A DNA stretch of 34,552 nucleotides from Chlorobiaceae bacterium. GTDB lineage: Bacteria; Bacteroidota; Chlorobiia; Chlorobiales; Chlorobiaceae. A program made the position numbers and the translations under genes. The notes below the pieces were generated by a model that was given only the letters and a program-made list of their open reading frames with translations, had not been told where the DNA came from and searched no databases. Positions 13,240 to 34,193 of this stretch are shown piece after piece. How positions within the stretch are numbered: the first letter of the stretch is position 1; each line of letters begins with the position of its first letter. Where the stretch lies: positions 1 to 34,552 of the forward strand of contig JAAXXL010000025.1 of assembly GCA_013334485.1 (NCBI GenBank), in the 5' to 3' direction.

Positions 13240-13458
13240 ATGGCTAAAAGTATAGTCAAATGGTTTGATGGTAAAAAAGGGTATGGATTTATTGTGAATC
13301 CTGATGGGGGAGAGGATATTTTTGTTCATTACTCGACCATTGATTCCGTGCACCGTTTCAGGTTTCTTAACGAGAATGCACAGGTTGATTATGAACTTGA
13401 CAATTCAACGAAGAGGTTACAGGCTAAATATGTGCGGGAAATTTCAGTTGCCTCCTGA
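13240..13458 (+). CDS. Cold-shock domain protein
   Basis: The 72-aa single-domain OB-fold protein binds single-stranded RNA and DNA and acts as an RNA chaperone. RNP1 KGYGFI (13-18) and RNP2 DIFVHYS (26-32) are both present, and VKWFDGKKGYGF matches the family consensus. The C-terminal half (VHRFRFLNENAQVDYELD) diverges from E. coli CspA, which has more Gly here, but the length is standard. It converges on hup, with a strong shared hairpin between. Confidence 0.92.
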   Translation: MAKSIVKWFDGKKGYGFIVNPDGGEDIFVHYSTIDSVHRFRFLNENAQVDYELDNSTKRLQAKYVREISVAS

Positions 13459-13615: not shown

Positions 13616-13891
13616 TTATCCCCCGACTTCATCCTTCAATGCCTTTCCTGGTTTGAATTTAACTACTTTTTTAGCGGCAATGGTAATGGTTTTGCCTGTC
13701 TGGGGATTTCTTCCCTGACGTGATGCCCGATCTACGGCTGCGAAGGTTCCGAAACCGGCAAGTGGCACATCGTTACCACTTTTTAAAGTAGCTTTTACAA
13801 TACTGATAAAGGCTGTAAGAGCCCTGTCAGCATCTGCCTTGGTCAGATTGGCCTGAGCAGCAATTTTTTCGATTAATTCTGCTTTGGACAT
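13616..13891 (-). CDS. hup: Histone-like DNA-binding protein HU
   Basis: The 91-aa protein is full length for HU, a dimeric nucleoid protein that bends DNA. It starts [16 protein letters not shown], has [24 protein letters not shown] (about 47-70) containing the DNA-contacting beta-arm with its RNP Pro, and ends [14 protein letters not shown]. Those segments are diagnostic; IHF subunits are usually longer with a different arm. Its 5' side contains one copy of the 142-bp mobile element, starting 105 nt upstream of the start codon, which may supply or displace promoter sequences. Confidence 0.94.
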
Positions 13892-13995
13892 AGAGTGTAT
13901 TATTTTTGAAGTTAGGGAAAAGGTCTATTTGTTCGGTCAAATCATGAGATTACAGGCAGTCCCGCGTTATTGTCGCGTGTACAGCATTTATATGA

Positions 13996-14137
13996 GGGCA
14001 CCTCTATTTATTGTCGTGAGAAGCCCGAGGATAAGGCGGATGGAGCACAGAAACCGGAGTGTACAGGTAGTACATGAGGATTTCGAGCACCACCCAACGC
14101 AGTAATCGGGTTTCGGAATAAATAAATAGAGGTGCCC
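13996..14137 (+). mobile_element. 142-bp MITE-like element, copy 1
   Basis: The element has 17-bp perfect terminal inverted repeats: GGGCACCTCTATTTATT at 13996-14012 and its reverse complement at 14121-14137. It is flanked by a 4-bp direct repeat ATGA (13992-13995 and 14138-14141), the expected target-site duplication. A second copy in the opposite orientation at 28770-28911 matches at 138 of 142 positions with no length change. It has no coding capacity, so it would depend on a transposase elsewhere. It lies upstream of hup. Confidence 0.9.
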
Positions 14138-14586: not shown

Positions 14587-17500
14587 ATGCCGCTTAATCT
14601 TTTTACAAGCAACCGGATGGAAGTTCTGGTTGATGCCCTTGGCAGTACACTTTCTGAACCCGCAACTTCGGTGTTGTCGAGAGAGATGATTGTTGTGCAG
14701 AGCAGGGGCATGCAGCGCTGGCTTTCAATGGAACTGGCCAGCCGTTTTGGCGTATGGGCCAATGGCCACTATCCCTTCCCTAACTCTATGGTCATTGAGC
14801 TTTTTGCGTCGCTGTTCCCATCTCTCTCGAACTCCTCCGCTTTTGTTCCGGAGGTCATGGCATGGAAAATCATGCAGCTTCTGCCGGCACTGCTTGAAAG
14901 TGCCCCATTTGACTCATTGCAGCACTATCTTTCAGACGATTGCGATGGCATCAAGCTTTTCCAGCTTTCGGAAAAAATTGCAGATACCTTTGACCAGTAC
15001 ACCCTTTTCCGTTCGGATCTGCTTGCAGAATGGGAGAGTGGCAAGAGTGATATAGTTGGAGATGAGTGGCAGGCAATTTTGTGGCGCAGGCTTAATTCGG
15101 AAATTCCGGGAGTGCATCGGGGTCAGATGAAAGAGCAGTTCTGTATGAAGCTGAGTCACTCATTACGCAAAGAGTTTGATCTGCCGGAGCGGATCTCGCT
15201 TTTCGGGATTTCGTACCTGCCGAAATATCATCTTGATATCCTTTCATCAGTCGCAAGGTTGACAGAGGTAAACCTTTTTCTTTTAAGCCCGACCTATCAA
15301 TACTGGTCTGATATTCTTCCCAAAAAAAGGGTCATGAGGCTCTCTTTGCCGGAGCGGAAACTCCGGAGTGAAGGTAATCCGTTGCTGGCATCTCTCGGCA
15401 CGACAGGTCGTGATTTTTTTGACATGATTCTTGACCTGAGCGATGGGGCATATATCCAGGAGGAGATGTATGACGATCCGGGACATGATTCTCTGCTCCA
15501 CTCGTTGCAGTCTGATATGCTGCACCTTTCAGGTACCGGTGACGAGGCGGATGAAACAGCAAGGACTCTTGATCCCCTTGACCGATCGGTTCGAATCCAC
15601 TCCTGTCACTCTCCGCTTCGTGAAATTGAGGTGCTTCATGACAACATTCTTGAGATGCTCTCAGGTGACAGCACGCTTACTGCGGGGGATATTGTTGTAA
15701 TGACCCCTGATATCGAGATCTACTCCCCCTACATTGCAAGTGTTTTTTCTGAAGTGGTGAATGGCGCTGCACATCTTCCATTTTCGATTGCGGATCGCAG
15801 GATCGTTAATGAAGGGGAGATCGCTCATGCGGTTCTCAAGGTTTTATCGCTTTATGGAAGCAGGCTTGCTGCATCCGAACTTTTTGATCTGCTCTCCTCT
15901 CCGCCAGTAATGAGGCGTTTCGAAATTGATGATGAAGCTCTCGGCATTATCCGGAACTGGATAGAGAAAACCAGGATTCGATGGGGAATGGATGAGCATG
16001 ATCGGGAGAGGAGGGCGCTGCCCTCCTACAGGGAAAACTCATGGCGGGAAGGGCTGAAGCGTTTGCTGCTCGGTTATGCCATGGCGGATGAAGAGCAGCT
16101 TTTTAATGGTACTCTTCCTTTTGGCGATGTTACGGCTTCGTCTTCCGATACTCTCGGCAGGTTTGCTGAATTTGTCGATGCCGTTGAGGCTTTTGTTCAA
16201 TCGCTTGATCGATTGCGCGATCTTGAGGGGTGGAGGCGCTGGTTTCAGGAGCTTCTTGCTGCTTTTATTTCACCGGATGAGAGTTCTGAACGGGAGTACG
16301 CCTCGATTGCTGCACTAGGTGAAACGATCTCTGATATCTCCGGAGGTGCAGCGTATGATGGTGAGGTGAGTGCGTCAGTCATGCTCTCCTGGTTCAAGGC
16401 CAGGCTTGAGCAGCAGGAGCAGGGTCTCGGATTTATGACTGGCGGGATAACGTTTTGCGCCATGTTACCGATGCGAAGTATTCCATTCAAGGTTGTTGTG
16501 CTTGTCGGTATGAATGATTCGGCCTTTCCCCGTCAGAACCGTCCGCCGGGATTTGATCTCATTGCAACATCGCCCCGTCGCGGAGATCGCTCCCTGCGCA
16601 ATGAGGATCGTTACCTTTTTCTTGAGTCTCTTCTGTCAGCCAGGGAGATATTCTATATCAGCTATGTCGGTCAGAGTATCAGGGACAACAGTGAAAAACC
16701 TCCCTCTGTGCTTGTCAGCGAACTGCTTGATGCGGTACATAGAGGGTTTCGTCTCTCCTCAGGAGCCCCTCTCACGGATCATATAGTGGTTCGCCATCGG
16801 CTGCAAGCTTTCAATCCTGAATATTTTACAGCAGGGTCCGGCCTCTTCAGCTATTCAACAGATAATTACAATGCGCTCATTGAAAAACAGCACCCGCTCA
16901 GCACGTTACGACCCTTCATGAGTGAACAGCTTGAAGAACCCTCAGAGGAGTGTAAATCTGTGCCGCTGGAGCAGCTTCTCAGATTTTATGACAATCCCTC
17001 CCGTTTTTTTCTTGAGCAGCGACTTGCTATCCGGATTGAAGAGTCCGCGCGACCGCTTGAAGATCGTGAGCCTTTTACCCTGGAGGGGCTGGAGCGATAC
17101 CAGCTCCAGCAGGAGCTTCTGAAGATTATACTCCAGGGTGAGGCGCCCGAAGAACAGCTCCCCCTGTTTCGAAGCCGGGGGATGCTGCCGCCTGCCCTGC
17201 ATGGTGAACGGTTGTTTTTTGAGCTTCTTGGGGAGGTGAAGGCTTTTGCCGCACAGGTACAAGAGCAGAGTGGTGGAAGAGAGCGGCTTGCCCCGCTTGA
17301 TGTTGATCTTCAGCTTGGCGGATTTCGACTTACCGGGAGGCTTGAGAGGGTGTGGCCGGAGCATCAACTGCATTATCGATGCGCAAAGAGGCGTCCGAAA
17401 GACACCATCAGGAGTTGGATAGAGCATCTTGTGCTCAATGCGGAAGCCAGAATTGGTTATCCTGCCGGGACTCTTCTGCTCATGGTTGACGGCCTCACGC

Positions 17501-17814
17501 GATTTTCCCCCGTTGATGACGCAGCAGTTCATCTTGAACACCTGCTGAACCATTACTGGCAGGGGCTCTTGACGCCGCTTCGATTTTTCCCCCACTCATC
17601 ACTGGCTTATGCTTCAAAGAGTGAAGAGCCTGAGAAGCTCAAAGCGGCACGCGTGGCGTGGATGGATAACGACTTTACCAGCATACCCGGAGAGGGCTCT
17701 GATCCGGCAATCTTGCGCTGTTTCGGAGTCGGCGATCCCTTTGATGCCGAGTTCCGCGCTCTTTCCGACGAGCTGCTCTCCCCCATGATTCGGGCAGGAG
17801 GCAATGCGGAATGA
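14587..17814 (+). CDS. recC: Exodeoxyribonuclease V gamma subunit RecC
   Basis: RecC is the Chi-recognising scaffold of RecBCD, which processes double-strand breaks for recombination. The 1075-aa length is normal. The N-terminus LFTSNRMEVLVDAL...VQSRGMQRWLSMELASRFGVWAN aligns by eye with E. coli RecC (HSNRLDVL...VQSTGMAQWLQ), which supports the start at 14587. The segment ALLESAPFDSLQHYLSDD...KLFQLSEKIADTFDQY is also RecC-specific. The inactivated helicase fold shows in FKVVVLVGMNDSAFPR (about 635-650). The stop overlaps the recB start by 4 nt (ATGA). Confidence 0.95.
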   Translation: MPLNLFTSNRMEVLVDALGSTLSEPATSVLSREMIVVQSRGMQRWLSMELASRFGVWANGHYPFPNSMVIELFASLFPSLSNSSAFVPEVMAWKIMQLLPALLESAPFDSLQHYLSDDCDGIKLFQLSEKIADTFDQYTLFRSDLLAEWESGKSDIVGDEWQAILWRRLNSEIPGVHRGQMKEQFCMKLSHSLRKEFDLPERISLFGISYLPKYHLDILSSVARLTEVNLFLLSPTYQYWSDILPKKRVMRLSLPERKLRSEGNPLLASLGTTGRDFFDMILDLSDGAYIQEEMYDDPGHDSLLHSLQSDMLHLSGTGDEADETARTLDPLDRSVRIHSCHSPLREIEVLHDNILEMLSGDSTLTAGDIVVMTPDIEIYSPYIASVFSEVVNGAAHLPFSIADRRIVNEGEIAHAVLKVLSLYGSRLAASELFDLLSSPPVMRRFEIDDEALGIIRNWIEKTRIRWGMDEHDRERRALPSYRENSWREGLKRLLLGYAMADEEQLFNGTLPFGDVTASSSDTLGRFAEFVDAVEAFVQSLDRLRDLEGWRRWFQELLAAFISPDESSEREYASIAALGETISDISGGAAYDGEVSASVMLSWFKARLEQQEQGLGFMTGGITFCAMLPMRSIPFKVVVLVGMNDSAFPRQNRPPGFDLIATSPRRGDRSLRNEDRYLFLESLLSAREIFYISYVGQSIRDNSEKPPSVLVSELLDAVHRGFRLSSGAPLTDHIVVRHRLQAFNPEYFTAGSGLFSYSTDNYNALIEKQHPLSTLRPFMSEQLEEPSEECKSVPLEQLLRFYDNPSRFFLEQRLAIRIEESARPLEDREPFTLEGLERYQLQQELLKIILQGEAPEEQLPLFRSRGMLPPALHGERLFFELLGEVKAFAAQVQEQSGGRERLAPLDVDLQLGGFRLTGRLERVWPEHQLHYRCAKRRPKDTIRSWIEHLVLNAEARIGYPAGTLLLMVDGLTRFSPVDDAAVHLEHLLNHYWQGLLTPLRFFPHSSLAYASKSEEPEKLKAARVAWMDNDFTSIPGEGSDPAILRCFGVGDPFDAEFRALSDELLSPMIRAGGNAE

Positions 17815-20800
17815 CACAGAAACTTGAGCATGCATCCATCGCTCTTTCGGGGATAAACCTGATTGAGGCAAGTGCCGGAACCGGGAAAACCTACGCTATC
17901 ACCTCACTCTATCTGCGACTGCTTGTAGAAAAAGAGCTTCTCCCGGACCAGATTCTGGTTGTTACTTATACCGAGGCGGCAACAGAGGAGCTTCGTGCAA
18001 GAATCCGGAGCCGGATACGGGAAGCGATTGATTTTAGTGAAAATCCCCAGGGAGAGGATCCCTTTCTTGATGCATTGATTGGCAATTGCAGTCAGATTGA
18101 GCGTACTAAAAAGAGAGAGCTGCTTGAGGGTGCACTGGGAGCCTTTGATATGGCATCGATTTTTACCATTCACGCATTCTCTCTCCGGGCATTGCAGGAT
18201 AATGCGTTTGAAAGCGGTTCACTTTATGATACCGAACTGGTAACTGATCAAACTGAGCTTGTCGGAGAAATTCTCGATGACTTCTGGCGTCGCCACTTTT
18301 TTATTGATTCGGCACCCCTTCTCGGTTTTGCATTGCAAAACCGGGCTGCTGAACTCTTTTCGACACTTCTTAATGCTCTTCGTTCAGGAAGCGGTGCCCG
18401 GATTATTCCGGAATTCAGTGAGGCGGAAGTTGCAGCTCTTGATGTGGAGTGCGGCGAACGCTACAGGATGCTCAGCACGATCTGGATGAATGATCATGAT
18501 GAGATAAAAGAGCTGCTGAAGTGCGACAAGGGGCTGCGGCGTTCAGAAGAGACCTACCGCGAAGACCTGCTTGGGCCCCTTTTGGAAAAGCTGGAGGCCT
18601 TTGTTTTTGGAGGTAATCCCTATGATCTCTTTTCGGGGTTTGTGCGCTTTACTACCGCAGGTATTGCAAAAGGAACCAAAACAAAAGCATTACCGCCCCA
18701 ACACCTCTTTTTCGAGAGCTGTGAAGCCCTGCAGATCGCTGTAAACCAGCGATTTCTTGCCCTGCAGGCAGAACTGGCAACCTTTTACCGCAAAAGCCTC
18801 ATTGAACGCAAAAGGGCTGCGAATATACGGTTTTTTGACGATCTGCTTGACGATCTCTACCATGCACTTCTCTCTGAGAGCGGTGGAGGGAAGCTTGCAG
18901 GCACTCTTCGTGAAAAGTACAGAGCCGCGCTTATTGATGAATTTCAGGATACCGATCCAGTCCAGTATGAGATATTCCGGAAAATCTATGCCGGTTCAGA
19001 TAATCCCCTTTTTCTTGTCGGTGATCCCAAGCAGGCGATTTACAGCTTTCGCGGGGCTGATATATTTGCCTATATGCGAGCGGCTCGTGAGGTGAGTGAT
19101 GACCGTCAATTTACGCTTACTGAAAACTGGCGCTCCTCTTCGCGGCTTTTGGATGCCTTCAATATGCTGTTTGAAAACGACCGTCATCCATTCTTGTATG
19201 ACGAGATAGCCTACTATCCGCTTACATCCGGCAATCCGGAGCAACAGCAAGGTTGTGGAGAAGTCGAGCCACTCCGGCTTTGGTTGATGGATTCAAGGAT
19301 CGAAAAAAATGAGACACTGACAGTAGATGCAGCTTCCCGTATCGCCTCTGCTTCCGTTGCCGGGGAGATTGCCCGGATTCTCAGGGACGGAGATTCCGTT
19401 GATGGCGTTCGGTCCGTGGAGGCTGGTGATATTGCCATTATTGTGCGTACCCACCGCCAGGGAGCAATGGTTCTTGATGCTTTGAGACAGAGGGGGATTG
19501 CCGGAGTCATGCGGAGCGACAAGAGCATTTTCAGCTCAATGGAGGCTGATGAGGTAAGAGTTCTGCTTTCTGCACTCTGTGACCCTGGCAGTGAATCGAA
19601 GGTGCGTGCGGCGCTGGTAACCGGTATACTTGGACGAACAGGAAATGATATTGCCTGTTTTGCCGATGATGAAGCTGCATGGAGTGAGATGCTCAGTCAG
19701 TTTCGACATTACCATCATCTCTGGCAGGATCGGGGATTTATGGTCATGAGTCGGGAGCTTATGGCTAAAGAGGGTGTGCGGGGTCGTCTTCTCAACGCGC
19801 CAGACTCGTCGGGTGAGCGCTGGCTCACCAATCTGCTTCACTGTTTTGATCTGCTGCATCAGGAGGAACATCAGCGGGGGTCAGGCATGGAAAAGCTTGC
19901 GGCCTGGTTCAGTGAGCGATGTGCTGCCAGCGAGAGCAGGGAGGAGTTTCAGATACGACTCGAAACCGATGAGGCTGCCGTCAAGGTTCTTACGGTTCAT
20001 ATCAGTAAAGGACTTGAGTTTCCTGTTGTCTTTTGTCCTTTTCTCTGGAGCGGGATTAACAGCACTAACAGGGTGGTCATGTTCCACAATGATAATGGGG
20101 ATCTCGTAAAAGATTTTGGTTCCCCTGATATTGACCGTCATCGTTCGATAGCCGGCAAGGAGGCTCTTGGCGAATGCCTCAGGTTGCTCTATGTGGCATT
20201 GACAAGGGCGAAGTACCGTTGCTATCTTTTTTCAGCAAAAATCCGATCAGAGAGCTCGCCTCTCAGCTATCTTCTCTACTCTTCTGATGATCTTCGAAAC
20301 GTTGAAGATCCTCTTGCTCAACTTCAGGCCGGAGCTGCTGCCAATACCGCCCGGACAATGGCTGAACGGTTGCAGCTCCTTGCCGAACGTTCAGGCGGAT
20401 CAATCGGATTCAACTGGATCAATCCCGAGCCTCAGGATTGCAGCAAGTCAGCTTCTTTCGGCAGTTCTTCTCATGGCAAATTTTCCCCGCTCAAACGCTC
20501 CTTTAACGGCATGATTGAGAGTGGGTGGCGGGTTTCAAGTTTCACCTCGTTTTGTCGCCATGAGTTCAGTGCCTCTGAGCTGCCGGATCGCGATGAGCAA
20601 CCGTTGACAGCGCCGCAGGCCGTGGTTATTAATCCGGAAAAGAACCTTTTTGCTTTCCCCCGCGGGGCCCAGGCAGGTATTTTCATGCATGGTATTTTTG
20701 AAAAGCTCAATTTCGCATCTCCCTCTATCCTGCAGATCCGGGAACTTGTTACAAAGGGACTTGATCGTTATGGTTATGATCATGAGTGGGAACCCTCTGT

Positions 20801-21389
20801 TACAAAGATGGTTCAACAGGTGCTTGGAGTGCCGCTCTCTTCGCCTAATGGAACCTTTACTCTCGGTGCCCTCAGACGCGGGAGCTGGGTTACCGAAATG
20901 GAGTTTTTCTTTCCTCTCAGCTTTATCACTCCCGCTATTCTTGGCGAGGTTCTCTCTCGATACGGCGCTCTCGACGAGGGGATTGATCTTGCCGCACTTG
21001 CCTCTAAGTTGCAGTTCAGGCCTGTCAGGGGTATGATGATGGGCTTTATGGATATGGTTTTTGTTGCAGACGGGCGGTACTATCTGCTCGACTGGAAATC
21101 AAATTTTCTGGGAAGCAGTTATGAAGATTACAACAAAGAGGCCATGAAAGAGGCTATGGAAACGAATCTTTATGCGTTGCAGTATCTTCTCTATACCGTT
21201 GCTCTTGACCGCTATCTTTCACTCCGGGTTAAAAACTACAGCTACGGTGAGCATTTTGGCGGCGTTATCTATGTTTTTTTACGCGGAGTGCACGGTGAGT
21301 ATGGGGAAACAAAAGGTTTCTTCCGTGACCGGCCACAGGAAGAGCTGATAAAAGAGTTGACCAATATTCTGATTCAACAGGGAGGGTAG
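17811..21389 (+). CDS. recB: Exodeoxyribonuclease V beta subunit RecB
   Basis: RecB is the 3'-5' helicase and sole nuclease of RecBCD. The 1192-aa product has Walker A ASAGTGKT (20-27), VVTYTEAATEELRARIRSRI (motif Ia), DEFQDTDPVQYEIF (motif II), VGDPKQAIYSFRGADIFAY (motif III), HISKGLEFPVVFCP (motif V) and LLYVALTRAKYRC (motif VI). The C-terminal nuclease is intact: His in FMHGIFEKL, Asp1081 in GFMDMVF and Asp1094-Lys1096 in LLDWKSN. Overlap with recC by 4 nt and a 4-nt gap before recD indicate one operon with coupled translation. Confidence 0.96.
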   Translation: MTQKLEHASIALSGINLIEASAGTGKTYAITSLYLRLLVEKELLPDQILVVTYTEAATEELRARIRSRIREAIDFSENPQGEDPFLDALIGNCSQIERTKKRELLEGALGAFDMASIFTIHAFSLRALQDNAFESGSLYDTELVTDQTELVGEILDDFWRRHFFIDSAPLLGFALQNRAAELFSTLLNALRSGSGARIIPEFSEAEVAALDVECGERYRMLSTIWMNDHDEIKELLKCDKGLRRSEETYREDLLGPLLEKLEAFVFGGNPYDLFSGFVRFTTAGIAKGTKTKALPPQHLFFESCEALQIAVNQRFLALQAELATFYRKSLIERKRAANIRFFDDLLDDLYHALLSESGGGKLAGTLREKYRAALIDEFQDTDPVQYEIFRKIYAGSDNPLFLVGDPKQAIYSFRGADIFAYMRAAREVSDDRQFTLTENWRSSSRLLDAFNMLFENDRHPFLYDEIAYYPLTSGNPEQQQGCGEVEPLRLWLMDSRIEKNETLTVDAASRIASASVAGEIARILRDGDSVDGVRSVEAGDIAIIVRTHRQGAMVLDALRQRGIAGVMRSDKSIFSSMEADEVRVLLSALCDPGSESKVRAALVTGILGRTGNDIACFADDEAAWSEMLSQFRHYHHLWQDRGFMVMSRELMAKEGVRGRLLNAPDSSGERWLTNLLHCFDLLHQEEHQRGSGMEKLAAWFSERCAASESREEFQIRLETDEAAVKVLTVHISKGLEFPVVFCPFLWSGINSTNRVVMFHNDNGDLVKDFGSPDIDRHRSIAGKEALGECLRLLYVALTRAKYRCYLFSAKIRSESSPLSYLLYSSDDLRNVEDPLAQLQAGAAANTARTMAERLQLLAERSGGSIGFNWINPEPQDCSKSASFGSSSHGKFSPLKRSFNGMIESGWRVSSFTSFCRHEFSASELPDRDEQPLTAPQAVVINPEKNLFAFPRGAQAGIFMHGIFEKLNFASPSILQIRELVTKGLDRYGYDHEWEPSVTKMVQQVLGVPLSSPNGTFTLGALRRGSWVTEMEFFFPLSFITPAILGEVLSRYGALDEGIDLAALASKLQFRPVRGMMMGFMDMVFVADGRYYLLDWKSNFLGSSYEDYNKEAMKEAMETNLYALQYLLYTVALDRYLSLRVKNYSYGEHFGGVIYVFLRGVHGEYGETKGFFRDRPQEELIKELTNILIQQGG

Positions 21390-21393
21390 TCGG

Positions 21394-23145
21394 GTGAGTA
21401 TCGAATTTCATGAACGGTTGATCGACCGCCATTTTGCAGCATTTATCACTGGTTCGTCCGGAAACGAGAGAGATCTTTTCTCACTTCTCGTCTCCATGCT
21501 CAGCAGCTCCGTCGGTGATGGCAATACCTGTCTGAATCTTCGAGAAGTTGCTGAAGAGCGAGTCATTGTTGATGGAACGGTTTTTGATTTTCCGGCCATT
21601 GACGAGCTGAGAGGGCTGGTCGTGCAATCGTCGGCGGCAGGTGTTCCAGGGCAGTTCAGGCCTCTGGTACTGGATGATGCCGGGCGGCTCTATCTCTACC
21701 GCTACTGGCGTTATGAGCATGATCTTGCCTCACTGCTACTTGAGAAAGCGCGAGGAGAGGATTGCAGGGTTGAAGATAAACTGCCGGATGACACATTGGT
21801 CAGAATGTTCCCGGAGAGTTCTGAGGGTGATAGTTCCCGTCAGAAAGAGGCTGCCGCTGTTGCTCTCTGCAGGCAGTTGTGTGTTATTTCCGGAGGTCCA
21901 GGAACAGGCAAGACCTCGACAGTTGTCCGGATTCTCGCACTGTTGCTCGAGCAGCATAACGGGCTGAAGCTGAACATTGCTATGGCTGCGCCGACAGGTA
22001 AAGCGGCAGCGCGTCTTAAAGCTTCAGTGTCTGCTCTTCGCCAGGTTCTTGATTGTTCAGATAACGTCAGAAACGCTATACCTGACAACGTTGTGACCAT
22101 TCATCGTCTTCTCGGTACGCTTTCAGGAACGGATCGTTTCCGGCACTCAGCATTGAATCCGCTTGCATTTGATATTGTCGTTGTTGATGAGGCCTCGATG
22201 ATTGCCCTGCCGCTTATGACCGCTCTGCTTAGAGCGCTGAAGCCCGGGGCTCGCCTTATACTGCTTGGAGACCGCGATCAGCTTGCTTCGGTAGAGGCCG
22301 GAGCTGTACTTGGCGATATCTGCCGGGCCGGAGAGCTGTTCCCGGATTCCCCGCTCGGCCAATCAATGGTTATGCTTGAAAAAAATTTCCGTTTTAAAGA
22401 GAAGAGCGGCATTGGTGAACTGAGCAGCCGGGTCAATGCCGGAAGAGGGGTAGATGCTTTACAGCTCCTGACAAACAGTGCTCAGGAGAGGCTCACCTGG
22501 CAGTCTGTTTCATCCCGTGAAGAGCTGAGGCGGTTACTTCCCGAAAGCGTTGTTGAGGGATACAGCTGCTCATTTAAAGCCGCTACACCCGGAGAAGCTC
22601 TTGAGCAGTTTGACCGGTTCAGGATACTCTGTGCGCTTCGTGATGGGCCGTTCGGAGTAAGTGGCATCAATGGCTATGTTGAAAGCACTCTTCGCAGGGC
22701 GAATCTGATTTCCGGCATAGAGGCCAATTATCGCTGCCGCCCGATTCTTGTTACGGCCAATGATCATACACTTCAGTTATTCAACGGTGATACCGGAATT
22801 CTTTTTCCCGATCCTGATTATGGCGGTGAACTCAGGGCGTTCTTTCCCTCATCTGACGGCGGTATCCGCAGCCTGGCTCCGATAAGAGTTCCTCATCATG
22901 AGAGTGCATTTGCCATGACTGTTCACAAAAGCCAGGGTTCGGAGTTTGAGCGTATTCTGTTGATTCTTCCTCCGACAGAGTCAGATATTCTGACAAGAGC
23001 GCTGCTCTATACAGCCATAACAAGGGCTAAGGCAAGTGTCGAGATCTGGGGAGATAAAGAGGTGTTTGTGAAGGCGGTCAGTCGAAAGAGTGAGCGGCAT
23101 TCCGGACTTGCCGATGCTCTGCTGTCGGCTGTAGAGGTGTGTTGA
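21394..23145 (+). CDS. recD: Exodeoxyribonuclease V alpha subunit RecD
   Basis: RecD is the 5'-3' helicase of RecBCD. The 583-aa product has an N-terminal domain (1-150), Walker A GGPGTGKT (167-174), APTGKAAARLKASV, DEAS (265-268), LLGDRDQLASVEAGAVLGDI and the C-terminal AMTVHKSQGSEFERILLILP and YTAITRAK motifs. The start is GTG at 21394, supported by a GGGAGGG ribosome-binding site overlapping the recB end. Length is typical of RecD1. There is no RecD2-type N-terminal extension, consistent with a partner of RecBC. No terminator hairpin is obvious before the next gene. Confidence 0.95.
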   Translation: MSIEFHERLIDRHFAAFITGSSGNERDLFSLLVSMLSSSVGDGNTCLNLREVAEERVIVDGTVFDFPAIDELRGLVVQSSAAGVPGQFRPLVLDDAGRLYLYRYWRYEHDLASLLLEKARGEDCRVEDKLPDDTLVRMFPESSEGDSSRQKEAAAVALCRQLCVISGGPGTGKTSTVVRILALLLEQHNGLKLNIAMAAPTGKAAARLKASVSALRQVLDCSDNVRNAIPDNVVTIHRLLGTLSGTDRFRHSALNPLAFDIVVVDEASMIALPLMTALLRALKPGARLILLGDRDQLASVEAGAVLGDICRAGELFPDSPLGQSMVMLEKNFRFKEKSGIGELSSRVNAGRGVDALQLLTNSAQERLTWQSVSSREELRRLLPESVVEGYSCSFKAATPGEALEQFDRFRILCALRDGPFGVSGINGYVESTLRRANLISGIEANYRCRPILVTANDHTLQLFNGDTGILFPDPDYGGELRAFFPSSDGGIRSLAPIRVPHHESAFAMTVHKSQGSEFERILLILPPTESDILTRALLYTAITRAKASVEIWGDKEVFVKAVSRKSERHSGLADALLSAVEVC

Positions 23146-27777: not shown

Positions 27778-28770
27778 GTGAATAACAAAATTCTTGTAAC
27801 CGGAGCGACAGGTTTTATTGGATCCCGTCTTGTAATCAAGCTTGCTGCTTCATCGGACGAAATCTTTGTTCTTGTCAGAAAGTCATCTGACTTGACTTCA
27901 CTCTCTGATGTATTGGATCGCATTCATCTGCTCTATGGTGATATAACCGATGGTGAGTCGATTAATGCTGCAATGAAGGGCATTGACTATGTCTATCATA
28001 CCGCAGGTCTTACCTATATGGGCGATAAAAAAAATGCCCTGCTTTATAAAATCAATGTTGATGGAACCAAAAATATCTTGCGTGCTGCAGCCGCAGAGGG
28101 TGTGAAAAGAGTTATTCATGTCAGCTCCATTACGGCTGTAGGTATTGCTTTTGACAAAAAGCCGGTCAATGAATCTGTTGTCTGGAATTTTGAAACGATC
28201 AGCCTTGAGTATGCAAGAACCAAACATATAGCAGAGCTTGAGGTCGCAAATGCCGTTAAAAAAGGACTTGACTGTGTGATTGTCAATCCGGCATTTGTGT
28301 TCGGTGCGGGTGATATCAATTTTAATGCCGGTCGTATAATCAAGGATGTCTATAACCGGAAGCTGCCCTTTTACCCTCTTGGCGGCATCTGCATCGTCGA
28401 TGTTGAAATTGTGGCGGAGGCCATCATATCGGCCATGGAAAAAGGGAGAACAGGTGAGCGCTACATTATCGGCGGCGAGAACGTCTCCTACAAAAAGCTT
28501 GCTGATACGATTTCACGGATTACCGGAGCGCCGAAAGTTCGTTTACCTATGCCATTCTGGATGGCAAAGATACTGAAGTTGATTCTGGATCTTTACAAGA
28601 ACAAAAACAGCATATCAAAGTTGTTCAACCTCTCCATGTTCAGGGTTGCATCCGAGTTTCTCTACTTTGATTCATCCAAGGCATCACGGGAGTTAAACAT
28701 GCGATACGAACCGCATGAACACAGTATTCGCAGCGCCTATGAGTGGTATCGTGACAGGAACCTTCTTTAG
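27778..28770 (+). CDS. Extended SDR, HpnA/dihydroflavonol-reductase-like NAD(P)-dependent epimerase or reductase
   Basis: The 330-aa product has Rossmann motif VTGATGFIGSRL (5-16), LLYGDITD, VYHTAG and INVDGTKNIL, catalytic Tyr-Lys in YARTKH, then VIVNPAFVFGAGD and GERYIIGGENVSYKKL. This order fits hopanoid-associated epimerase HpnA and dihydroflavonol-reductase-like extended SDRs, which act on lipid-linked or aglycone substrates. The exact substrate is unknown. The start is GTG. The gene ends in TAG, whose G is also the first base of the second MITE copy; before insertion the stop would have been the same TAG. The MITE separates it from the sugar operon downstream. Confidence 0.85.
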   Translation: MNNKILVTGATGFIGSRLVIKLAASSDEIFVLVRKSSDLTSLSDVLDRIHLLYGDITDGESINAAMKGIDYVYHTAGLTYMGDKKNALLYKINVDGTKNILRAAAAEGVKRVIHVSSITAVGIAFDKKPVNESVVWNFETISLEYARTKHIAELEVANAVKKGLDCVIVNPAFVFGAGDINFNAGRIIKDVYNRKLPFYPLGGICIVDVEIVAEAIISAMEKGRTGERYIIGGENVSYKKLADTISRITGAPKVRLPMPFWMAKILKLILDLYKNKNSISKLFNLSMFRVASEFLYFDSSKASRELNMRYEPHEHSIRSAYEWYRDRNLL

Positions 28771-28911
28771 GGCACCTCTATTTATTTGTTCCGAAACCCG
28801 ATTACTGCGTTGGGTGGTGCTCGAAATCCTCATGTACTACGTGTACACTCCGGTTTCTGTGCTCCATCCGCCTTGTCCTCGGGCTTCTCACGACAATAAA
28901 TAGAGGCGCCC
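28770..28911 (-). mobile_element. 142-bp MITE-like element, copy 2
   Basis: This is the reverse complement of the element at 13996-14137, with four substitutions in 142 bp. Terminal repeats match at 16 of 17 positions (GGCGCC replaces GGCACC at one end). The 4-bp flanks TTTA (28766-28769 and 28912-28915) form a target duplication different from copy 1, so the two insertions are independent. The left end falls inside the stop codon of the extended SDR, and the right end lies 80 nt before the sugar operon. Confidence 0.9.
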
Positions 28912-28972
28912 TTTAGTTGAGGCTGATTTGCTGTCTACCCGATGATTGAATAAATATTTAACAATACATTAC

Positions 28973-28991: not shown

Positions 28992-30098
28992 ATGAGTTTC
29001 AACCCTTTTTTCAGCACAGTTCACAGGTTTTTCATGCGGAATCAAACAAAATCCGGCGCATCATGGACCGGTTACGTTGGTCTTTCTCTTGGTGTTTTAC
29101 TTATTGGCTATCTTTTCAGCCAGGTTGATCTCCAGGGCGCTGTTGAGCGGATTTCGCTTATCGGTTTCTCATCACTTTTTATTTTTCTGCCCTATCTCGG
29201 CCTTCATGTGCTTGAGTCCATTGCCTGGTTCATGCTCTTCCCCGGAAGCAGTGTGCCGATATCTTTTTTCAAACTTCTGAAAATCCAGTTGATTGCAGAG
29301 ACGGTTTCCATGACACTTCCCGCTGGCGTAGCCGTTGGTGAACCTCTTCGTCCCTTTCTCTGTTCCAGGTTTATGGGTATACCGATTCCCGCCGGCGTTG
29401 CAAGTGTTGCCGTTCGCAAGCTCATGCTTGGTGTTGCCCAGGGGATCTATACTATTTTCTGTGCAGTAGCGGGTTTTACCTTTCTTCAGACGGTCTCCTT
29501 CAGGATGCTTGGATTCGGGGGTCTGGGTACGATCATGATAGCAACGGGCATAGCTGTTTTTCTGATATTTCTCTCTCTGCTTTTTCTGCTCCTTAACGGC
29601 AGGGCGGCTCAGAAGGTGCACGCTCTGTTGATGCTGATCCCGTTCAACCGGGTGAAGCTCTGGCTGCTCTCGAAAGAGTCCGCATTTCTTGATACGGATG
29701 TTGAATTAAAGCACTTCCGTGGCCCTTTTGCCGCCAGGCTTGTACCGATAATGCTGATCTATGTGCTCGCCTGGTTCATGCTTGCCATCGAGAGTTATAT
29801 TATCCTGACCCTTCTCGGAGTAAAGATCTCTTTTTTTCAGGTGCTTGCCATAGATGCATCGCTTACCATGCTTCGGGTCCTTTTTTTCTTCGTACCTTCG
29901 GGTCTTGGGGTACAGGATCTCGGATACATAGCGTTTTTTCAGGCGCTCGGAATTCAGGATTATCTGGCTTTAGGGGGGGCATTTGTGCTTTTGAGGCGGT
30001 TCAAGGAGCTTCTGTGGTACGCATTTGGCTACGGGATTATGTTTTTTTCAGGTGTTCATCTGCGTGATGCTGAACAGATCAGTCAAAAAAATTCATGA
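28992..30098 (+). CDS. Lysylphosphatidylglycerol-synthase-type membrane protein (UPF0104/PF03706)
   Basis: The 368-aa product has about eight hydrophobic segments between residues 28 and 350. It contains family features LPYLGLHVLESIAWFMLFPG, TLPAGVAVGEPLRP near residue 110 and FFFVPSGLGVQDLGYIAFF near residue 300. This is the flippase-like half of MprF-type proteins without the aminoacyl-transferase domain. Stand-alone members often occur in glycan or glycolipid clusters and are suspected of moving lipid-linked products across the inner membrane. Here it heads an operon of sugar genes and overlaps the next gene by 4 nt (ATGA), suggesting export or flipping of the product those genes make. That role is inference. 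Confidence 0.85.
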   Translation: MSFNPFFSTVHRFFMRNQTKSGASWTGYVGLSLGVLLIGYLFSQVDLQGAVERISLIGFSSLFIFLPYLGLHVLESIAWFMLFPGSSVPISFFKLLKIQLIAETVSMTLPAGVAVGEPLRPFLCSRFMGIPIPAGVASVAVRKLMLGVAQGIYTIFCAVAGFTFLQTVSFRMLGFGGLGTIMIATGIAVFLIFLSLLFLLLNGRAAQKVHALLMLIPFNRVKLWLLSKESAFLDTDVELKHFRGPFAARLVPIMLIYVLAWFMLAIESYIILTLLGVKISFFQVLAIDASLTMLRVLFFFVPSGLGVQDLGYIAFFQALGIQDYLALGGAFVLLRRFKELLWYAFGYGIMFFSGVHLRDAEQISQKNS

Positions 30099-31051
30099 GG
30101 AAAAAAGTTTTATTTATATGCGGTTCGATGAATCAGACCACCCAGATGCATCAGATTGCATCGGGCTTGGAGGATTACGACCAGTACTTTTCAACTTTTT
30201 TCAGTGACGGCCTCCTCGGTACCGCCAGTGATATGGGGTTGCTTGAATTTACCATCATGGGTCGCAAGCGCTCGGACCGTACTCTCGACTATCTTCGTTC
30301 CCATAATCTTAAGCTTGATATAGGCGGATACAGCCATACCTATGATCTTGTTGTAACCTGTACAGATCTTATTGTTCCGAAACATATCCGCCGCAGGAAA
30401 ATTGTACTTGTACAGGAGGGGATGACTGAACCGGAAACCATTTTCTACCATCTTGCCAGAAACTTTCAATGGGTTCCCCGCTGGATTGCCGGAACAGCGA
30501 CCACAGGGTTGTCGGATGCGTATGAAAAGTTCTGCGTTGCCAGTGAAGGGTACCGTGATCTCTTTATTCGCAAAGGGGTGAACCCTGCAAAAATTGAGGT
30601 GACAAGCATACCCAATTTCGACAATTGTGAGCAGTACCTTCAGAATGATTTCGAACATCGCGATTACATTCTAGTCTGTACATCGGATAATCGTGAAACC
30701 TTTATCTACGAAAACCGCCCGAAAAATATCAGAAAGTATCTTGAAATGGCTGAAGGGCGGCAGCTTCTTTTCAAGCTCCATCCCAATGAAAATGCCGAAA
30801 GAGCCAGAAGGGAGATTGAACTTTATGCTCCCGACGCACTTGTTTTCAGTGAAGGCCGTACAGAGGAGATGATCGCCAATTCGCGAATGCTGATTGCCCA
30901 GTTTTCATCCACAATTTTTGTCGGTTCCGCCCTGAACAAGGTTGTTCATTGCGGTCTGGATCCAGCGGAGCTGAAACGGCTTACTCCGATACAGAATAAA
31001 TCGGCGGCAAAAAAAATAGCTGATGTCTGCCGGAAAGTGCTGGAGGGATGA
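30095..31051 (+). CDS. GT-B-fold glycosyltransferase-like protein
   Basis: The 318-aa product starts KKVLFICGSMNQTTQMHQIA, an N-terminal Rossmann-like start with a GSMNQTTQMH loop. The C-terminal half contains LLFKLHPNENAERARREIELYAPDALVFSEGRTEEMIANSRMLIAQFSSTIFVGSALNK, the layout of nucleotide-sugar binding in capsule and CDP-glycerol-type transferases and UDP-GlcNAc 2-epimerase-like folds. I cannot name donor or acceptor. Because the three following genes would make a CMP-activated acidic sugar, it is the best candidate for the transferase using that donor. Its translation is coupled to the upstream membrane-protein gene. An epimerase rather than transferase activity cannot be excluded. Confidence 0.7.
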   Translation: MRKKVLFICGSMNQTTQMHQIASGLEDYDQYFSTFFSDGLLGTASDMGLLEFTIMGRKRSDRTLDYLRSHNLKLDIGGYSHTYDLVVTCTDLIVPKHIRRRKIVLVQEGMTEPETIFYHLARNFQWVPRWIAGTATTGLSDAYEKFCVASEGYRDLFIRKGVNPAKIEVTSIPNFDNCEQYLQNDFEHRDYILVCTSDNRETFIYENRPKNIRKYLEMAEGRQLLFKLHPNENAERARREIELYAPDALVFSEGRTEEMIANSRMLIAQFSSTIFVGSALNKVVHCGLDPAELKRLTPIQNKSAAKKIADVCRKVLEG

Positions 31052-31102
31052 GTGGTTTTCAACAAAAAGAGAGTGTTTAACGTGCCTGTAAATTAACGCG
31101 CA

Positions 31103-31816
31103 ATGCATACCGTAGCGATCATACCTGCAAGAGGCGGCTCAAAAGGTCTCAAAAACAAAAATATCTATCCGGTGGCAGGCCAGCCGCTGCTTGCCTGGAC
31201 TATCCAGCAGGCACTCTCTTCGAAGCGGATTGACAGGGTTTTCGTTTCGACTGATGACCTTGATATTGCTGCTGTTGCAAAAGCATACGGAGCAGAGGTG
31301 ATTGAGCGTCCGGAGGAATTGTCCGGTGACAAGGCTACCTCCGAATCAGCCATTCTGCACGCAGCAGGGGTTATTGAAGGTGAACATGGTCTCCCGATCA
31401 AAACAATAGTCTTTCTGCAGGCAACCTCTCCCCTGAGAAAACCGGACGATATCGACCGGGCTGTTGAGCTCTTTGAATGCGATGGGGCAGACTCCCTGAT
31501 TTCGGTCACAAGAGCTGATGACCTTACCATCTGGGAATCAAGGGCGGGGAAGTGGAGCAGCCTTAACTTTGATTACCGCAATCGCGGCATGCGCCAGGAT
31601 CGTCCTGCGCAGTTCATCGAGAACGGTTCAATCTATATTTTTACGCCCGGCACCATCAAGAGCTTTAATAACCGGATCGGCGCCAGATTAAGTGCCTATG
31701 AGATGGAGTTCTGGCAGACATGGGAGATTGATACTGTTGAAGAAATAGATTTAATTGAGTTTTACCTATACAAAAAAAACCTGGCCGGCCAGGTGGCAGA
31801 GCTGAAAAACCAATAG
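31103..31816 (+). CDS. CMP-sugar synthetase, acylneuraminate cytidylyltransferase (NeuA) type
   Basis: The 237-aa enzyme couples an ulosonic acid to CMP with release of pyrophosphate. The start is [20 protein letters not shown] (residues 1-20), the NeuA-type CTP-binding loop, followed by [54 protein letters not shown] and a late ENGSIYIF. KdsB enzymes for CMP-Kdo instead begin with PARYxSSRxPGKPL. So the enzyme belongs to the sialic/legionaminic side of the superfamily even though its neighbours resemble Kdo8N synthesis genes. Substrate is therefore uncertain: 8-amino-Kdo or another amino-ulosonate. It is 51 nt downstream of the transferase and 12 nt before the dehydrogenase. Confidence 0.88.
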
Positions 31817-31828
31817 ACCACTGTTGTT

Positions 31829-32959
31829 ATGAATTTTTTTTTATCCACCGATCTTGTCATCGGGGTGAATGAAGCATTGAACCTCAATGAGCATCTTGCT
31901 CATCTTGCCGTGCAGAAGCCCGGCATTATCTACGATGCCAATCTGGCGGGCAATCTCTATTTTCAGGATGTTCTGAAAAATATTACCACCGGATACAAAA
32001 ATTCGGTACTCTACTGTAACGAATTCGGTGGCGAGCCGACCTACGCGCACCTGGAGAACGTAGCGGAATTTTTCAGGGGCAATGTTCCTGATGGAATTAT
32101 TGCCATAGGCGGAGGCAGTACTCTTGATCTCGGCAAAGGGGTTGCGCTGCTTCTTACCAATCAGGTACCCGCGCTCTCGCTCAAGGGATTTCCGAAAGGG
32201 GTCAACGATCCTCTTCCTCTTGTAACAGTTCCTTCACTGCTTGGAAGCGGCGCAGAGGTCAGTTTTAATGCAGTCTTTATTGATGAGGCTGAGGGGCGCA
32301 AACTCGGCATCAACAGCCGGAAGAATTTCCCCAAAAAAGCAGTTATCGATCCGAACCTCTCCATGACCGCTCCGATGGAGAGCGTCATAGCCTCAGCCAT
32401 GGACAGTCTTGTTCACTGTGTTGACAGTTTCGGTTCAGTCAAGCACACTGCGCTTAGCCGGATATTTTCCGTTGAGGGCTTTCAGCGTACCTTTTATGCC
32501 CTTCAGCAGGGTCAGCTTGACCGGGCTGAATCCCGACTTGATCTTGCCATAGGGAGTGTTTGCGGTACGGTTGCCCTAATGAACTCGGGAGATGGCCCGA
32601 CCAACGGTTTTGCCTACTATCTCGGAGTCAAGCACAAGGTGCCTCACGGTCTTGCAGGAGCAATCTTTCTCAAGGAGGTCATGCGCTACAACCATAATCA
32701 TGGCTATGAGAAGTATGCCCTGCTCAATCCGATGAGAAGCTCACCTTCACCAGCAGAGGCTACTTCCGAACTGCTTGACGAGATGGATGCTCTCTACCGG
32801 CAGCTTCAGATTCCGACCCTTTCCCGTTACGGTTACGGACGGGATAATGCCGCCGAGTTTGCACACAATGCATCGGAAGCGCTGAAAGGCTCATTCTCGG
32901 GCAATCCGGTTGAGTTTACCGAAGAGTCGGCAAGATCTGTAGTTTTTCAATTAACCTAA
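31829..32959 (+). CDS. kdnB: Iron-type alcohol dehydrogenase resembling KdnB (Kdo 8-oxidase)
   Basis: KdnB oxidises the C8 alcohol of Kdo to an aldehyde in the two-step synthesis of 8-amino-Kdo known in Shewanella. The 376-aa product is a group III dehydrogenase with IIAIGGGSTLDLGKGVALLLTN (90-111) for NAD(P), VPSLLGSGAEVS (134-145), and metal ligands Asp192 and His196 in MDSLVHCVD. In FucO the third ligand is His in AHPLG; here that position is Tyr263, and His269 and His273 follow in VKHKVPHG. The segment GFAYYLGVKH resembles the KdnB sequence as I remember it. Position directly before a KdnA-like aminotransferase, 16 nt apart, is the main support. Another dehydrogenase role is possible. Confidence 0.7.
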   Translation: MNFFLSTDLVIGVNEALNLNEHLAHLAVQKPGIIYDANLAGNLYFQDVLKNITTGYKNSVLYCNEFGGEPTYAHLENVAEFFRGNVPDGIIAIGGGSTLDLGKGVALLLTNQVPALSLKGFPKGVNDPLPLVTVPSLLGSGAEVSFNAVFIDEAEGRKLGINSRKNFPKKAVIDPNLSMTAPMESVIASAMDSLVHCVDSFGSVKHTALSRIFSVEGFQRTFYALQQGQLDRAESRLDLAIGSVCGTVALMNSGDGPTNGFAYYLGVKHKVPHGLAGAIFLKEVMRYNHNHGYEKYALLNPMRSSPSPAEATSELLDEMDALYRQLQIPTLSRYGYGRDNAAEFAHNASEALKGSFSGNPVEFTEESARSVVFQLT

Positions 32960-32975
32960 AGGAGTAAAAGAGAGT

Positions 32976-34133
32976 ATGGCTGGTGCAGAACTAATCGGTC
33001 GGGAGGAGCTGGCCGAAATTCAGGAACTTTTCAGCAGAGAAAAGGTCAATCTCTACCGTTACGGCGGAGGTAATTACAAGGCTCGTGAGTTTGAAGAGAA
33101 ATTTGCCGCATGGATGGGGGTAAAGTATGCCCACGCCGTATCGTCAGGAACAGCGGCAATTCACTGCGCGCTTGCCGGTGCTGGAATTGCCCCCGGTGAC
33201 GAAGTTATTACAACAGCATGGACCTTCATTGCCCCTGTTGAGGCAATCAGTGCTCTTGGCGCCGTACCGGTGCCAGTTGAGCTCGATGAGACCTACCACC
33301 TCGACCCGCTTGAGATAGAGAATGCCATCACTCCGGCCACAAAGGCGGTCGTTGCCATACCGATGTGGGCTTCACCGAAAATGGATGAAATAGCTGCAAT
33401 CTGCCGCAAACACAACCTTATTCTCATTGAGGATGCTGCCCAGGCGCTTGGTGCATCTTACAAGGGGCGTAAACTCGGTACTATCGGCAGTGTGGCCTCT
33501 TTCTCGTTTGATGCAGGCAAGACGCTCCATACCGGTGAAGGTGGGATTATTATTACCAATGACAAGGAGATCTACGACCGTGCTGCGGAGTTTTCTGATC
33601 ATGGCCACATGCATATCCCTGGTCTGCCGAGAGGCAAAGATCCCCGTCGCTCCAAAGGACTCAACCTTCGTCTCAGCGAAGTGACGGCGGCAATAGGGCT
33701 TGCCCAGCTTGCCAAAATCGAGATGATCCTTTCGAAATCACGGGAGAACAAGAAGAAAATCAAGGACGCAATCCGTTATCTTCCGAACATCACTCTCCGT
33801 CCGTTCAGTGATGAAGAGGGATCACAGGGTGATACCCTTATTTTCAGGGTGAGGGACCGCGAGGCCGCGCTGCAGCTTGAGGCACATCTTCTGGAGCATG
33901 GCTTTGGTACCAAAATTCTGCCGGAAGCTCTTGACTGGCATTTTGCTGGCGTATGGGGTCATCTGCTCGGAGAGTATGACCGCTATCGTGATGCTGATCT
34001 TGAGGCACTCTGGCCAAAAACCGGCACCATGCTTCGTAGCAGTATCTGTATTAACATACCGGTGCTGATTGATGAACCGACCATTGAAAAACTGGTACAG
34101 GCTATTATTTCAGGAGCGAAGAGGATCGGATAA
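32976..34133 (+). CDS. kdnA: DegT-family PLP aminotransferase resembling KdnA (8-amino-Kdo transaminase)
   Basis: KdnA transfers an amino group from glutamate to the C8 aldehyde of oxidised Kdo, giving 8-amino-3,8-dideoxy-octulosonate. The 385-aa product has SSGTAAIHCAL (56-66), PMWASPKMDEIAAICRKHNL, Asp153 in LIEDAAQALGAS, the PLP Lys182 in FSFDAGKTLHTGEGG, and EFSDHGHMHI then RSKGLNLRLSEVTAAIGLAQL. The SFDxxKTxxxGEGG, FSDHGHxHI and KKxIKDA segments match Shewanella KdnA as remembered and are not typical of nucleotide-sugar aminotransferases such as ArnB or PseC. AGGAG at 32960-32964 supports the ATG. This is the last gene of the operon, closed by a terminator 18 nt after the stop. Confidence 0.75.
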   Translation: MAGAELIGREELAEIQELFSREKVNLYRYGGGNYKAREFEEKFAAWMGVKYAHAVSSGTAAIHCALAGAGIAPGDEVITTAWTFIAPVEAISALGAVPVPVELDETYHLDPLEIENAITPATKAVVAIPMWASPKMDEIAAICRKHNLILIEDAAQALGASYKGRKLGTIGSVASFSFDAGKTLHTGEGGIIITNDKEIYDRAAEFSDHGHMHIPGLPRGKDPRRSKGLNLRLSEVTAAIGLAQLAKIEMILSKSRENKKKIKDAIRYLPNITLRPFSDEEGSQGDTLIFRVRDREAALQLEAHLLEHGFGTKILPEALDWHFAGVWGHLLGEYDRYRDADLEALWPKTGTMLRSSICINIPVLIDEPTIEKLVQAIISGAKRIG

Positions 34134-34150
34134 CAGAGAGAAATTGGTAA

Positions 34151-34193
34151 AACTGAAAAAGCCTGCGACGAGCAGGCTTTTTCAGTTTTTTTT
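34151..34193. terminator. Rho-independent terminator after the sugar operon, probably bidirectional
   Basis: AACTGAAAAAGCCTGC (34151-34166) pairs with GCAGGCTTTTTCAGTT (34172-34187) over 16 bp with a 5-nt loop, followed by six T. In the other direction a run of four T follows, so it can also end the tRNA-Cys transcript. Confidence 0.92.

Follow-up and report, generated by a model that had tools for sequence, protein, structure and literature searches.

KdnA and KdnB are known from Shewanella as the enzymes of 8-amino-Kdo (Kdo8N), an aminated form of the eight-carbon sugar 3-deoxy-D-manno-oct-2-ulosonic acid (Kdo), and KdnB acts at C8 of Kdo. For the nine-carbon sugar 3-deoxy-D-glycero-D-galacto-nonulosonic acid (KDN), BT1714 and a homologue make the 9-phosphate from mannose-6-phosphate (Man-6-P) (PMC6200933). 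Here we compare these systems with a five-gene operon in a 34,552-nucleotide stretch of a Chlorobiaceae bacterium (JAAXXL010000025.1, assembly GCA_013334485.1; hereafter the window), which is a single contig from a 2.59-Mb draft genome. The initial annotation had read the operon as a candidate route by which an aminated ulosonate is made, activated and transferred, with Kdo as the substrate. The general idea of such a route in Chlorobi is supported by our analysis, but the sugar handled by the operon is very probably a sialic-acid-like one with nine carbons, judging from sequence relationships, and not Kdo. We consider it likely that the operon forms one half of a nine-carbon nonulosonate pathway that is spread over two loci and core to Chlorobiaceae, namely the half that aminates, activates and transfers the sugar.

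The five open reading frames (genes 1 to 5) are clustered on the + strand exactly as first described, with a 4-nt overlap between genes 1 and 2 and subsequent gaps of 51, 12 and 16 nt. The intrinsic terminator 3' of the operon (34149..34189, + strand; 18-bp stem, 5-nt loop and U-rich tail) is also real, the region 34145-34192 folding at -28.1 kcal/mol (z = -8.4 relative to shuffled sequences); it was not among the matches listed by a generic terminator pattern scan. The arrangement is widely conserved: the complete set is found in unchanged order at 60 of 67 Chlorobiaceae loci from an independent collection, and the remaining seven lack end genes where contigs are short or cut nearby, consistent with contig ends. 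Conservation of gene order and content at this many loci indicates that the operon arrangement is not due to chance. Gene 5 is present at an identity of at least 78% in 80 of 86 Chlorobiaceae genomes, and the closest named locus for genes 4 and 5 is that of Chlorobium ferrooxidans DSM 13031 (96% identity). The five-gene operon is a core trait of Chlorobiaceae rather than an accessory island. The family-level readings of its genes (flippase-like, glycosyltransferase-like, CMP-sugar synthetase, Fe-ADH and DegT aminotransferase) hold, while the proposed specificities needed correcting.

Gene 4 (31829..32959, 376 aa) encodes a dehydrogenase of the iron-dependent alcohol dehydrogenase (Fe-ADH) family with matches to PF00465/PF25137, and gene 5 (32976..34133, 385 aa) encodes a KdnA-like pyridoxal phosphate-dependent aminotransferase of the DegT family (PF01041). 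The nearest solved relative of gene 5 is Shewanella KdnA (PDB 5k8b, 285 bits; 163 bits for the next solved structure), and gene 4 and KdnB belong to one Fe-ADH superfamily; both observations would favor an operon that makes, activates and transfers Kdo8N for the inner core of lipopolysaccharide, as in Shewanella. However, in a careful phylogeny with a LegC outgroup, gene 5 forms a clade with aminotransferases from nonulosonate clusters (support 99/98), and forcing it together with canonical KdnA is rejected (approximately unbiased test, p = 0.018); gene 5 falls outside the canonical KdnA clade. The proposal that gene 4 is KdnB-like did not hold. Its best relatives among solved structures are of the FucO type, with KdnB far lower in the ranking (96 bits for FucO, 64 bits for KdnB), and the third metal-ligand His, which KdnBs retain, is replaced by Asn in the motif GPTNGFAYYLG, as in all Chlorobiaceae copies compared. 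In a quick tree, whose weight is reduced to moderate by long outgroup branches, gene 4 groups with dehydrogenases from nonulosonate clusters (85 and 96), and the KdnB-type proteins are set apart in a clade of their own (100).

The genomic neighborhoods of these relatives point in the same direction. Scanning 84,980 species genomes for the subfamily of gene 4 recovered 13 loci outside Chlorobiaceae. The nine with enough flanking sequence are all nonulosonate clusters, three of them from archaeal metagenome-assembled genomes; archaea are not known to have Kdo. NeuB and NeuC are encoded in every one of the nine, accompanied by LegB and/or LegC, by NeuD and, in five, by NeuA, and a KdnA-like gene is located next to the dehydrogenase or one gene away in 9/9 (frameshifted in L132). 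One archaeal nonulosonate cluster (L126:4059-5801) contains a 580-aa open reading frame weakly similar to NeuB and to CMP-sugar synthetase, possibly a fusion. Separately, KdnA/KdnB-type pairs are found in varied Bacteroidota (L110, L112, L113, L114, L117, L118), several together with a KdsB-like gene. Kdo8N-type genes thus extend beyond Shewanella.

Gene 3 (31103..31816, 237 aa) encodes a CMP-sugar synthetase (PF02348) that, by its sequence, is of the NeuA/PseF type and not KdsB. It scores 114 bits against the PseF model and at most 63.5 bits against KdsB models, and in the PDB it is best matched by CMP-NeuAc synthetases (134 bits), KdsBs scoring less than 36 bits. In this it differs from those canonical Bacteroidota KdnA/KdnB loci that hold a KdsB-like gene. 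In several near-complete Chlorobiaceae genomes the gene 3 orthologue is the sole NeuA-type enzyme, and in near-complete genomes with a single NeuB the only CTP_transf_3 members besides KdsB are the orthologue of gene 3 and a weakly IspD-like protein, which makes gene 3 the natural partner of the conserved NeuB described below. A pathway with a phosphonate-type CTP transferase was considered from the mix of genes; the strong NeuA and KdnA matches make it unlikely, no search aimed at it having been made. The window genome does make Kdo, which would suit a Kdo8N operon: kdsA, kdsB and waaA, for which the initial annotation had proposed a genome check, are all present. They lie elsewhere (kdsB on contig C50, waaA on C15, and kdsA, adjoining a KdsC-type phosphatase of the haloacid dehalogenase (HAD) family, on C60) and by sequence constitute a complete Kdo pathway separate from the operon. 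Relatives of gene 2 are linked to NeuB instead of kdsA. On the basis of the trees, the neighborhoods and the phosphatase residues presented below, we dropped Kdo8N as the product and regard it as highly improbable; the trees, the type of gene 3 and a conserved NeuB with a KDN-9-phosphate (KDN9P)-type phosphatase all point to a nonulosonate.

The latter two are encoded at a second locus of the window genome (G000:C102:~29137-30655), where a 289-aa NeuB-family synthase follows a second KdsC-like HAD. NeuB is matched in 95 of 98 genomes of the class, the orthologue having 75-97% identity. The HAD at this locus scores 145.8 bits against the KDN-9-P phosphatase model and 124 bits against KdsC, and the kdsA-linked HAD has no match to the former model at 1e-20. 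All aligned NeuB-linked or orthologous HADs from Chlorobiaceae and its sister families carry E56/R64/K67 (numbering of the Bacteroides KDN9P phosphatase), whereas the other HAD set, kdsA-linked in 8/9 genomes, has Arg at position 56 and no Lys at 67. Positions 56 and 67 are reported to set the specificity of this phosphatase; in PDB 4hgq, position 56 is mutated to Ala. That the NeuB-linked HAD could serve as the sole KdsC was considered and rejected, as each of nine tested genomes has two KdsC-like HADs, one of which adjoins kdsA in eight. In a single-contig Chlorobiaceae genome, kdsA appears to be split by a frameshift into two adjacent matches (G016:C1:2232049-2232812). We infer that the NeuB and the KDN9P-type phosphatase supply the operon with its nine-carbon substrate.

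The same pathway might start from another base sugar, Neu5Ac (N-acetylneuraminic acid) or another hexose-derived nonulosonate, or aminate at C4, C5 or C7. Such sugar phosphatases are functionally redundant (PMC6200933), and the best model for the conserved NeuB is that of N-acetylneuraminate synthase, at 235 of the 399.65 bits required. However, this NeuB has no SAF domain, and the SAF domain of meningococcal NeuB contributes to N-acetyl recognition. Furthermore, NeuC was not found adjoining either the operon or the conserved NeuB, the phosphatase shares E56 and K67 with KDN9P phosphatase, and C8 is the one side-chain hydroxyl common to Kdo, legionaminic-type sugars and KDN. A different base sugar or one of these other positions therefore seems unlikely.

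Gene 2 (30095..31051, 318 aa) encodes a GT-B glycosyltransferase-like protein, which has no Pfam match above cut-off. Its AlphaFold model (predicted local distance difference test score 84.7) adopts a GT-B fold, with UDP-GlcNAc 2-epimerases, TagF and a CMP-bound capsule synthase (8a0c) as fold neighbors. Among these the epimerases are the top Foldseek matches, and weak Epimerase_2 Pfam scores (11-23 bits, cut-off 30.6) also allow for an NDP-sugar 2-epimerase-like enzyme, transfer being done elsewhere. This is distinctly unlikely, since the HRxEN motif of the epimerases is not kept in the gene 2 family (TSDNRET / TSDTRET), one relative barely passes the cut-off for CDP-glycerol glycerophosphotransferase (22.6 vs 22.1 bits), gene 2 adjoins a CMP-synthetase in nearly all neighborhoods seen, and KDN derived from Man-6-P requires no 2-epimerase. 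In an alignment with 18 relatives, EG and KLHPNE are invariant and FS[ST]T is conserved. The protein has HP and S(S/T) motifs on a GT-B fold, presumably the marks of CMP-ulosonate-dependent GT-B transferases. Relatives with 46-56% identity are located in Bacteroidota clusters with a short NeuB, and we propose from the model and the motifs that gene 2 is a putative CMP-nonulosonate transferase. Gene 1 (28992..30098, 368 aa) encodes an LPG_synthase_TM / HpnL-type flippase-like integral membrane protein (PF03706, 77.6 bits, cut-off 33.4; TIGR00374, 43.8 bits, cut-off 43.2).

From these families, clades and linkages we infer a route in which base sugar, enzymatic activities, position of amination, acceptor and flipping would be as follows. 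The SAF-less NeuB would condense phosphoenolpyruvate with a hexose-6-phosphate that bears no acetyl group, most probably Man-6-P, to KDN-9-phosphate, from which the HAD phosphatase would release KDN. Gene 4 would oxidize a side-chain hydroxyl of KDN, most likely that at C8 and otherwise that at C9. Gene 5 would aminate the resulting carbonyl to yield an amino-deoxy-KDN that is isomeric with neuraminic acid (C9H17NO8). Gene 3 would activate this sugar to CMP-amino-KDN, gene 2 would pass it to an acceptor that is either a lipid or a lipid-linked glycan, and passage of the resulting sugar-lipid across the membrane may be aided by gene 1. Legionaminic-type sugars have a methyl group at C9, which leaves the hydroxyls at C4 and C8. 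By analogy, amination at C8 is most likely, as this is the only side-chain hydroxyl shared with Kdo and KDN, and C9 is possible in KDN. Taken alone, L111 looked like proof of a reaction at C9; this was dropped because L111 belongs to a legionaminic-type cluster, in which a CH3 is expected at C9, and C8 thereby became the favored position.

Several observations weigh against this route. The NeuB and the phosphatase are encoded outside the operon in Chlorobiaceae, and their link to it is made through relatives and the single-copy inventory. The score of the NeuB-linked HAD lies under the curated cut-off of the KDN-9-P phosphatase model (180 bits), and the fold search with gene 2 ranked UDP-GlcNAc 2-epimerases over transferases, at low identity and large root-mean-square deviation. 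Finally, the dehydrogenase/aminotransferase pair should be unable to act at C9 in legionaminic-type clusters, which makes any position assigned to it in KDN tentative.

The link between NeuB and the operon is apparent in other Bacteroidota. Of 394 genomes sampled from the phylum, 141 contain relatives of the short, SAF-less NeuB. In 20 neighborhoods around this NeuB (65-79% identity; L232-L251) we found a short-chain dehydrogenase/reductase (SDR) in all 20, a CMP-synthetase and a class-III aminotransferase in 19 each, a gene 2 relative in 18 and a HAD in 12, with a weak flippase match in two. The genes form mostly one contiguous run, followed by a fatty acid hydroxylase in those tested, and the CMP-synthetase is of a KdsB-like subfamily, unlike gene 3. 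The cluster is thus fairly uniform and widespread: glycosyltransferase, CMP-synthetase, in some cases transketolase N/C, class-III aminotransferase, SDR, HAD, SAF-less NeuB and fatty acid hydroxylase. The sister families of the order Chlorobiales keep the flippase-glycosyltransferase-CMP-synthetase block at one site, where the gene 1 orthologue (31-42% identity) adjoins the other two, and NeuB-HAD at another, but are without the Fe-ADH/KdnA-like pair; no gene 5 orthologue was found in any of 12 genomes (best match 44%). An orthologue of the class-III aminotransferase (at least 78% identity) is present in 9 of these 12, one partial, and the best match in 86 Chlorobiaceae genomes has 39% identity. 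Since the sister families carry the class-III aminotransferase and Chlorobiaceae are without it, the Fe-ADH and KdnA-like enzymes appear to have taken over the oxidation-amination step in Chlorobiaceae, the synthetase type changing as well. By analogy, the two modules would perform equivalent chemistry.

A lipid as the acceptor of amino-KDN is a lead and not a finding. The sugar of a Chlorobium aminoglycosphingolipid reported in 1991 is said to have been named as neuraminic acid. The lipid comes from Chlorobium limicola (Jensen et al. 1991, as cited in PMC11762602). Since amino-KDN would have the same formula as neuraminic acid, our prediction bears on that report. It is conceivable, though doubtful, that in nearly all Chlorobiaceae a membrane lipid, which might be that of C. 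limicola, is capped with zwitterionic 8-amino-8-deoxy-KDN, the Fe-ADH/KdnA-like module having replaced the SDR/class-III module. A Kdn-linked sphingolipid of Emiliania huxleyi is mentioned in PMC6200933. Within a limited literature set, searches for Chlorobium with neuraminic, sialic or nonulosonic acid returned nothing relevant, and one on triamino-nonulosonate found nothing.

Directly past the operon terminator, a tRNA is encoded on the opposite strand. Elsewhere in the window, an element of about 143 bp resembling a miniature inverted-repeat transposable element is present in two copies (28769-28912 and 13995-14137), 97% identical and in opposite orientation, with 17-18-bp terminal inverted repeats (GGGCACCTCTATTTATT); more copies are found elsewhere in Chlorobiaceae, for instance at L041 and L043. 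A recC-recB-recD operon (exodeoxyribonuclease V) occupies 14587-23145, and small open reading frames at 13240-13458 and 13616-13891, by eye cold-shock-protein-like and HU-like DNA-binding-protein-like, lie in a gene-poor stretch.

Our analysis predicts an amino-nonulosonic acid, distinct from Kdo, as a conserved and previously unrecognized constituent of the cell envelope throughout an entire phototrophic family. It further suggests that, in bacteria as well as archaea, the KdnA/KdnB reaction type extends to sugars with nine carbons, and that one amination module was exchanged for another within a single pathway. Which sugar the Chlorobium aminoglycosphingolipid of 1991 carries becomes directly testable, and a KdnA-like match need not mean Kdo8N.

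Compared with known systems, the operon resembles Shewanella KdnA/KdnB in combining an Fe-ADH oxidase, a KdnA-family aminotransferase and a CMP-sugar synthetase for a ulosonate. It differs in that the Chlorobiaceae genes belong to sister clades, activation is of NeuA type and not KdsB type, the metal-ligand His of the dehydrogenase is lost, and the proposed substrate is C9, not C8. The synthase, 9-phosphatase and CMP-synthetase logic is that of the KDN pathways of Bacteroides thetaiotaomicron (BT1713-BT1714-BT1715), where the specificity residues of BT1713 are matched, and of Prymnesium parvum (PMC6200933), to which Chlorobiaceae add an oxidation-amination module, a glycosyltransferase and a flippase, with the genes at two loci. 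Genes 4 and 5 have their closest relatives in the legionaminic-type clusters with an Fe-ADH and KdnA-like pair (L122-L128, L131, L132), which encode a NeuB close by and, in several cases, NeuA. These clusters differ in having NeuC, LegB or LegC and in their NeuB, which is longer and, where tested, of the SAF type; their base sugar is a different one. The Bacteroidota cluster with the short NeuB shares a homologous glycosyltransferase, NeuB and HAD and likewise has a dehydrogenase and aminotransferase module, in which SDR and class-III aminotransferase replace the Fe-ADH and KdnA-like enzymes, while a KdsB-like subfamily replaces the NeuA-type synthetase.

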